The notes beneath the pieces were generated by a model. The model ran no database searches. It had not been told where the DNA came from and worked only from the letters and a program-made list of their open reading frames with translations. Position numbers and translations under genes: made by a program. From Holophagaceae bacterium (lineage in GTDB: Bacteria; Acidobacteriota; Holophagae; Holophagales; Holophagaceae), in the NCBI GenBank assembly GCA_025350765.1, contig JANXXC010000019.1, positions 1-32,138 on the forward strand: DNA of 32,138 nt, read 5' to 3'. The first letter of the stretch is position 1. Every line of letters begins with the position of its first letter. Shown piece after piece: positions 14,595 through 24,277 of this stretch.

Positions 14595-14615
14595 AGTGAA
14601 ACTCCTAAAAAGACT

Positions 14616-15131
14616 GGACACAGAAGGCACAGAAGGAGAGGGGAAAACACAGAGACTGAATCGCGGTTTTCTTCTGGATTACCGTCCCACCTTAGCCCAG
14701 TTATCAACTCCATCGACAAGGAATGCGGAGAATGGAATAGCCACGGATTACACGGATCTGTTTGCCAAAAATTTTCCTAACTGTCGGCATCTCTCGACCA
14801 AATCCCTCGCGCCACCAAACTGCTGGGACGAGGAGATCGCGGAGAAAAGCGCGGAGAACACGAAGAGAGTCGTGCAGTGCAGCGCGGGGGTCGCCCGCAT
14901 ATGCGGGCACAGGCGCGACGCGCCTGAGGATGTGGGCGCGACCGCCGACTCGCCCTCAAAAGCGATCGAGGTCGCGCCCACATCCAAATGACCCCCGCTG
15001 GATGCGGCGCTGAACCTGCATTTCCGTGGTTTTATGTGAGATTTCTCTGCTTTCTGTGTCCGACTTTTTTATGCTGCGTGATGCCGAAAATCAGAATTTT
15101 TTTTATCCGTGGAAATCCGCGCAATCCGTGG
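14616..15131. repeat. Composite intergenic region built of inverted short dispersed motifs
   Basis: GGACACAGAA (14616-14625) vs TTCTGTGTCC (15052-15061); CCACGGATT (14741-14749) vs AATCCGTGG (15123-15131) and ATCCGTGG (15105-15112); GCGGAGAA motifs around 14840-14860. Confidence 0.75.
14880..15000. other. Nested perfect palindromes able to form a four-way-junction cloverleaf
   Basis: P1 GCGGGGGTC (14884-14892)/GACCCCCGC (14990-14998), alternatively extended by CAGC/GCTG with a 2-nt bulge; P2 GCCCGCATATGCGGGC (14893-14908); P3 AGGCGCG-A-CGCGCCT (14911-14925); P4 GGATGTGGGCGCGACC (14928-14943)/GGTCGCGCCCACATCC (14970-14985). Confidence 0.9.
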
Positions 15132-15176
15132 CCCAGGTTTTTCGGCGTCATCCGCGACCACCGTTACACTAGAGTT

Positions 15177-22690: not shown

Positions 22691-22727
22691 GGGAAATTCC
22701 AAGCCCTGATGAAGTATCATTTGGAGG

Positions 22728-22787
22728 TCCGAGGAGCGCTGCGAGACACCTGTCCCAGGCTCGGATTCTTGATGAACGGCGCTCACC
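22728..22787 (+). ncRNA. S-adenosylhomocysteine (SAH) riboswitch aptamer
   Basis: TCCGAGGAGCGCTGCGA...CCAGGCTCGGA...AACGGCGCTCACC: TCCGAG (22728-22733)/CTCGGA (22760-22765); pseudoknot GAGCGC (22734-22739)/GCGCTC (22779-22784); lies directly upstream of ahcY. Confidence 0.93.
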
Positions 22788-22830
22788 TCACAACCTTGCC
22801 GGGGTGTGTTGGGTGAGCCCGCGAGCCCAT

Positions 22831-22861: not shown

Positions 22862-24277
22862 ATGACGGCCGGAACTCAAACTGATTTTCATGTCGCCGAC
22901 ATGACCCTGGCCGCTTTTGGCCGCCGGGAAATCGCCATCGCCGAGACCGAGATGCCGGGTCTCATGGCCATCCGCGAGGAATTCGCCGCGTCCAAGCCGC
23001 TGAAAGGCGCGCGCATCGCGGGTTCCTTGCACATGACCATCCAGACGGCGGTGCTCATCGAAACGCTGAATGCCTTGGGCGCGGATGTGCGCTGGGCTTC
23101 GTGCAACATCTTCAGCACCCAGGATCACGCCGCCGCTGCCATCGCCGAAGGCGGCACGCCGGTCTTTGCGGTGAAGGGCGAGACGCTCACCGAGTATTGG
23201 GATTACACCCACCGCATTTTTGATTTCGCGCCTGATGCTCAAGGATCGGGCGCGAACATGATCCTGGATGATGGCGGCGATGCCACGCTGCTGCTGCATC
23301 TCGGCGCTCGCGCTGAAAGTGATGCGTCGGTGCTGAACAACCCCGGTAGCGAAGAAGAGCACATTCTTTTCGCGGCCATCCGCAAGCGCCTTGCTTCTCA
23401 TCCCGGCTGGTACGCAAAGCAGTTAGCGGGCATTCGCGGTGTCACCGAAGAGACCACCACCGGAGTGCATCGCCTTTATGAAATGGCGAAAAAAGGCGAC
23501 CTGAAATTCCCCGCCATCAACGTCAATGACAGCGTCACCAAGAGCAAGTTTGATAACCTCTATGGCTGTCGCGAATCCTTGGTGGATGCCATCAAGCGCG
23601 CCACGGACGTGATGATCGCCGGCAAGGTGGCCTTGGTCTGCGGCTACGGCGACGTGGGCAAAGGCAGCGCCCAAGCCCTGCGCGCGCTGTCGGCCCAGGT
23701 GTGGGTCACGGAAGTGGACCCCATCTGCGCCCTGCAGGCTTCAATGGAAGGCTATCGCGTGGTGACCATGGATTACGCCGCAGACAAGGCCGATATCTTC
23801 GTCACCGCCACGGGCAACTACAAAGTCATCACCCACGATCATATGGCGAAAATGAAAGACCAGGCCATCGTCTGCAACATCGGCCATTTCGACAACGAAA
23901 TTGATGTGGTGAGCCTCGAAAAATACACTTGGGAAGAGATCAAGCCCCAGGTGGATCACATCATCTTTGAGAACGGCAAGCGCATCATCCTGCTGGCCAA
24001 AGGCCGGCTTGTGAATCTCGGCTGCGGCACCGGCCATCCCAGCTATGTGATGAGCAGTTCTTTCGCCAATCAGACCCTGGCGCAGATCGAGCTGTGGACG
24101 AAGCGCGACGACTACAAAATCGGCGTCTACACGTTGCCCAAGCATCTCGACGAGAAGGTCGCGCGCCTCCAGCTTAAAAAGCTCAACGCTGTCCTCACCG
24201 AGCTTCGCGACGATCAGGCCACTTATATCGGCGTGAGCAAGGACGGGCCCTACAAGGCGGATCAGTACCGGTATTAA
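22862..24277 (+). CDS. ahcY: Adenosylhomocysteinase
   Basis: [84 protein letters not shown]-terminal KADQYRY. Confidence 0.98.

Follow-up and report, generated by a model that had tools for sequence, protein, structure and literature searches.

The window, i.e. the complete stretch of 32,138 nucleotides that was analyzed (contig JANXXC010000019.1 of the Holophagaceae assembly GCA_025350765.1), contains a gene for a BNR protein and a divergently oriented smpB gene, and the unannotated DNA between these two can be folded into a compact cloverleaf. The preliminary description had placed four stems around a four-way junction here, and reading of the sequence, the detection of inverted repeats and RNA folding all returned these stems at the same positions. 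On the plus strand, the outer stem P1 (14884-14892 paired with 14990-14998 in the RNA fold) encloses the hairpin P2 (GCCCGC-ATAT-GCGGGC, 14893-14908), the hairpin P3 (CAGGCGCG-A-CGCGCCTG, 14910-14926) and the long hairpin P4, which has arms of 16 bp each (14928-14943 and 14970-14985). P3 had been given as 14911-14925 and gains an eighth pair, C14910-G14926. The loop of P4 (14944-14969) holds a conserved CC..AAAA tip and a small inner stem; the internal pairing that had been suggested for this loop is thus present in the fold.

The structure is far more stable than expected by chance, with -91.9 kcal/mol against -51.3 +/- 3.8 kcal/mol for dinucleotide shuffles (z around -10.8; 0 of 200 shuffles as good). 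The idea that either strand could adopt it also held: the opposite strand reached -93.8 kcal/mol as RNA (z -9.5, no shuffle as good), and folding as single-stranded DNA gave z-scores of -10.8 and -10.3 for the two strands. Rfam searches gave no match for the feature at the gathering score, only matches at chance level. A role as intrinsic terminator or promoter was discarded, as the number of such sites in the feature was no higher than in shuffled sequence. Elsewhere the window contains an ordinary SAH riboswitch (22725-22791; Rfam RF01057, E 5e-7), with the gene for S-adenosylhomocysteine hydrolase (22862-24277) just downstream of it.

The 320-bp element and its copies

One candidate explanation put forward earlier was a dispersed palindromic repeat, and the cloverleaf indeed proved to be dispersed: the 123-bp region gave around 27 strong matches within its own genome, at 80-93% identity. 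When the copies were aligned together with their flanks, the homology reached well past the cloverleaf, and a search with the full unit recovered around 26 nearly complete copies, along with roughly a dozen that have internal deletions. The cloverleaf as such was therefore described properly, but the homologous unit is larger than had been noted and runs from 14776 to 15095, including arms and terminal repeats that had been overlooked. The consensus element measures 320 bp, starts with CCTGATTATCGGC and ends with GCCGATAATCAGG, which constitute terminal inverted repeats of 13 bp, and folds into a single long imperfect arm that carries the cloverleaf at its tip.

The copy in the window lies on the plus strand, belongs to family I and is 83% identical to the consensus over positions 1-319. 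Its left terminal repeat reads CCTAACTGTCGGC (14776-14788, plus strand) and its right one, annotated on the minus strand, reads GCCGAAAATCAGA on the plus strand (15083-15095); in general, the terminal repeats are more diverged in old copies. The left outer arm (14803-14883), built of ACACGGAG-type repeats, is imperfectly complementary to the right outer arm (14999-15068); both are plus-strand features taken from the consensus fold, with approximate limits. The expected target duplication, AAAATTTT on the left (14768-14775) and ATTTTTTT on the right (15096-15103), is degraded, with 5 of 8 positions matching in this copy. No transposase gene was found inside the 320 bp, and the overlapping ORF of 145 amino acids lacks a Pfam match; the copies of the element differ from one another by indels. 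The element in turn sits within a separate, smaller palindrome, GCCACGGATTACACGGAT, that was apparently its insertion target and whose arms lie on the plus strand at 14740-14757 and 15115-15132; the locus thus represents nested insertions. An extra fragment that resembles an outer arm of the element was detected as an inverted repeat further upstream (14606-14634, plus strand).

Two lines of evidence bear on past movement. Firstly, the 8-bp flanks match at 7-8 of 8 positions in 8 of the 26 copies, where re-paired flanks lead one to expect 0.08; exact flank matches occurred four times at length 8 and at most once at every other length from 4 to 12. Secondly, an empty site was found before smpB in two genomes of the same genus (G057 and G059), in which little DNA separates the BNR gene from smpB. 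Since the gap between the homologous edges is so short there (around 60-110 bp, versus around 590 in the window), the repeat material at the smpB locus is an addition. The 25 copies examined were located between genes as judged by simple ORF predictions (one case was ambiguous), and their orientation was not fixed. The element at 14776-15095 is a miniature transposable element without genes of its own (MITE). The empty site and the around 26 other locations rule out a role linked to smpB, and the nearness to that gene is incidental.

In the own genome, the same ends also delimit sister elements, namely a family of around 445 bp and short variants that lack the cloverleaf; in genus g3 they delimit elements of 279-349 bp. 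A number of these sister elements likewise fold into an arm that bears a branched core. The ends of several contigs in the own genome's assembly fall inside the 445-bp element (loci L060-L062 and L068), probably because recent, near-identical copies break the assembly. Searches of phages and plasmids for the element gave no match. A pattern scan of named genomes gave 72 exact matches, among which no true palindromic member was recognized and which were taken as chance, and a scan of viral contigs gave two loci.

Terminal repeats of the IS1595 type

The 13-bp end was present in 21 of the 77 genomes of the family. In five of these (G059, of the same genus, and G040, G043, G045 and G046) pairs of ends face each other at a distance of 1.7-3.8 kb, and all of the end-bounded elements that were read code for an IS1595-family protein with a zinc ribbon and a DDE domain, interrupted by a stop codon in one copy. 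The transposase matches PF12762 (E 7e-32), PF12760 and NCBIfam IS1595 (E 4e-59), and the other matching elements that were read each hold a relative of it, at 71-88% identity. The ends of these transposons agree with the MITE consensus in 13 of the first 13 bases, and the sequence CTCAGCC is shared further in. Five of the transposons are moreover flanked, in the same register, by perfect 8-bp duplications (TAGGTCTT, AAAATGGT, ATTCCTGA, TATCTTTA and TAAACAAG), in agreement with the length that has been reported for this transposase family (PMC8101967). Some transposons with these ends carry a passenger gene with a BRO-N domain (L171, L186).

Within the genus, transposons with these ends occur in G059, and a more distantly related IS1595 transposase is encoded in G056. 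We found no IS1595 transposase in the own genome, the assembly of which has a completeness of 91% and is broken at repeats; a copy may therefore have been missed. Because the own assembly lacks a matching transposase, mobilization in trans is deduced from the shared ends. Judged from these sequences, the MITE was probably moved by a transposase of the IS1595 family: acting in trans, a zinc-ribbon DDE enzyme of this kind would use the terminal repeats to transfer the element, which has no gene of its own, to AT-rich intergenic sites.

Conservation of the branched core

The interior of a MITE is usually regarded as junk. A covariance model of the core nevertheless recovered related cores in G056 (same genus), in G055 (genus g6) and in G025 and G033 (genus g3). 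The three genera agree in how P2, P3 and P4 are ordered and sized, and most of the letters in the stems have changed. Among 12 divergent copies, 26 of the 38 pairs showed double changes and 95% of the cells were paired, versus 37-44% in slid controls (37-48% or less when all slid controls are taken together), although the alignments were fitted to the structure and these figures are inflated. For P1 the counts come from the model-fitted alignment, as MAFFT had misregistered this stem in alignment A1, and the counts of alignment A2 were excluded, since antisense and unrelated matches were mixed in. For the own-genome set the covariation counts were smaller, yet above the controls. None of the outcomes that the preliminary description had named as refuting it was observed: the folding energy surpasses that of shuffled sequence, further copies occur in the genome and in relatives, and compensatory changes preserve the stems. 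A second model, run on 396 genomes of the phylum with strict filters, placed the core in g1 and g3 only. Many of the core copies in g3 reside in elements with other ends and without a visible duplication. In a second family of the own genome (about a dozen copies, L211-L223) the ends are of the type CCTGATTACC... and the cloverleaf carries its P4 hairpin in inverted orientation.

The unpaired tip of P4 is conserved as well. CCC-AAAAA, or a sequence near it, is found in nearly all related cores, and a looser CC..AAA pattern in 50 of 56 distinct P4 loops. Divergence amounted to 9% in the core, 16% in the arms and 23% in the ends, and in 26 of 27 copies the ends had diverged more than the core, a comparison that is biased by the fact that the copies were partly gathered by core similarity.

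Such a pattern could arise if the core were a structured RNA, formed after read-through transcription, that acts in mRNA processing or stability or as a small RNA and is merely spread by the transposon. The very stable four-way junction, the cross-genus covariation and the conserved unpaired loop would fit such an RNA, and there is a precedent in the transcribed MITE hairpins that have been proposed as targets of RNase III (PMC2229807). Selection on one strand should, however, tolerate G-U pairs more readily, and over all copies the mismatches in P2-P4 comprised 27 G-U and 29 A-C cases, i.e. no strand bias; two subsets leaned in opposite directions (4 versus 14 and 23 versus 15). This balance favors a fold at the level of DNA, or passive correction of the arms, over an RNA of one strand. 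The equally good folding of the opposite strand, the flipped P4 of the second family, copies without fixed orientation or gene context and the lack of an Rfam match also speak against the RNA, which makes it an unlikely explanation.

Paired changes within palindromes can also come from template switching between the arms, without selection, and arm-correcting mutation is known for quasi-palindromes. The core might accordingly be functionless, a palindrome within a MITE that owes its regularity to template switching and common ancestry. The stem changes in the own-genome family, most of which are one-sided decay, and the mismatches without strand bias are what one would then expect. Correction of arms, however, cannot keep an unpaired loop, and the tip of P4 has been retained between genera. 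Neither does it sit well with P2, P3 and P4 retaining order and size in three genera despite changed stem letters, or with a core that diverges less than the ends that the transposase requires. We regard a functionless core as the less probable reading. The persistence of fold and loop across three genera and between different ends suggests that the interior of the MITE is in use.

The nature of that use is less certain. The core may be kept because the DNA fold (a cruciform, or hairpins in single-stranded DNA) together with the CCC-AAAAA tip binds a putative protein, which could help the element to multiply or to be tolerated. We infer a function of the core, including the binding of a protein by the fold, with less confidence than the mobility of the element.

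A separate lead concerns nucleases of the GxxExxY (PDDEXK_3) type, the genes of which were found in 62 of the 77 genomes of the family. In four species of genus g3 (G013, G004, G033 and G008; L299-L302) one cloverleaf element stands on either side of a GxxExxY gene; in G033 the two elements are oppositely oriented. As judged from sequence, the flanked locus seems to adjoin pan genes in at least two of the four species, and therefore the four loci may represent one ancestral site. Independently of this, inverted arms (CACAGAGGACACAGAGG or CACCGATGAACACCGAT type) often bracket the GxxExxY genes of this family tightly, as in a cassette (L263-L298). These arms reached a mean score of 18.7 versus 8.3, and the 99% level of the swap control was exceeded in 16 of 35 cases. 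They also resemble the arms of the element; here 10 of 35 exceeded the 99% level of the control (p around 4e-9). A literature search by protein name returned no paper that describes such bracketing.

The core could thus have originated in the nuclease cassettes and have been captured by an IS1595-type MITE, with the nuclease recognizing branched DNA. The flanked genes in the four species and the similarity between the arms are in keeping with such an origin. A general association between GxxExxY genes and the core was nevertheless rejected, as a clear core was present within 1.5 kb at none of the 30 top-scoring GxxExxY loci (there was one weak match). Conversely, the gene was found at 6 of 30 core loci, in three or four species and maybe at one ancestral locus, and at none of the MITEs of the own genome. 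We consider this origin quite improbable and the link to GxxExxY a lead rather than a conclusion. A slim chance is likewise given to the cloverleaf being a self-standing module of branched DNA with a CCC-AAAAA tip, common to otherwise unrelated mobile palindromes (the IS1595-ended MITEs, the arm-only elements and the pairs that flank GxxExxY genes) and recognized by a nuclease, for instance GxxExxY. If so, it would constitute a partnership of repeat and nuclease of a previously undescribed kind.

Taken as a whole, the observations are in all likelihood best explained by a gene-less MITE that is mobilized by IS1595-type transposition and whose branched core has been maintained through paired changes, perhaps because it is used. 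An unannotated structure is thereby explained as mobile DNA, for which a likely transposase family can be named in a testable way, and the apparent use of the interior provides a concrete target for finding its user.

Comparison with known mobile palindromes

The preliminary description had listed a REP/BIME-like element among its candidates. The dispersed palindrome was borne out by the genome copies, but the classical REP/BIME type was not, in view of the transposon-type ends and the 8-bp duplications. Classical REPs measure 20-40 nt and, to our knowledge, make no target duplication. A REP-like repeat that depends on a RAYT (Y1 transposase) would likewise be dispersed, intergenic and palindromic, and the two copies around a nuclease-like gene in four relatives recall the REP pairs around RAYT genes. 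The element in the window is larger, however, and has DDE-type ends with 8-bp duplications, and the search for RAYT/TnpA_REP transposases that had been proposed yielded no Y1/RAYT transposase and no PF01797 match in the own genome (G000). We therefore hold service by a RAYT to be extremely improbable.

Close agreement is seen with the IS1595 insertion sequences and their gene-less derivatives, with which the element shares the first 13 bases and the 8-bp duplications, a zinc-ribbon and DDE transposase being encoded by the elements with shared ends. Unlike these transposons the element is gene-less, and its arms and cloverleaf interior were not detected in the matching transposons. A comparable relation was described for RUP of Streptococcus pneumoniae, for which mobilization in trans by IS630-Spn1 was proposed from the shared terminal repeats (PMC2229807). 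Both are small, gene-less and intergenic, with terminal repeats that match a full transposon and a mobilization in trans that is deduced from them. RUP differs in its transposase family, its target and its size (100-200 bp versus 320 bp), and the element in the window has a branched core with conservation between genera. Like it, Correia/NEMIS and ERIC elements are dispersed intergenic palindromes that can fold as RNA or DNA, but these are long stem-loops, whereas the element described here has a four-way junction, a loop motif that is conserved, and 8-bp duplications.
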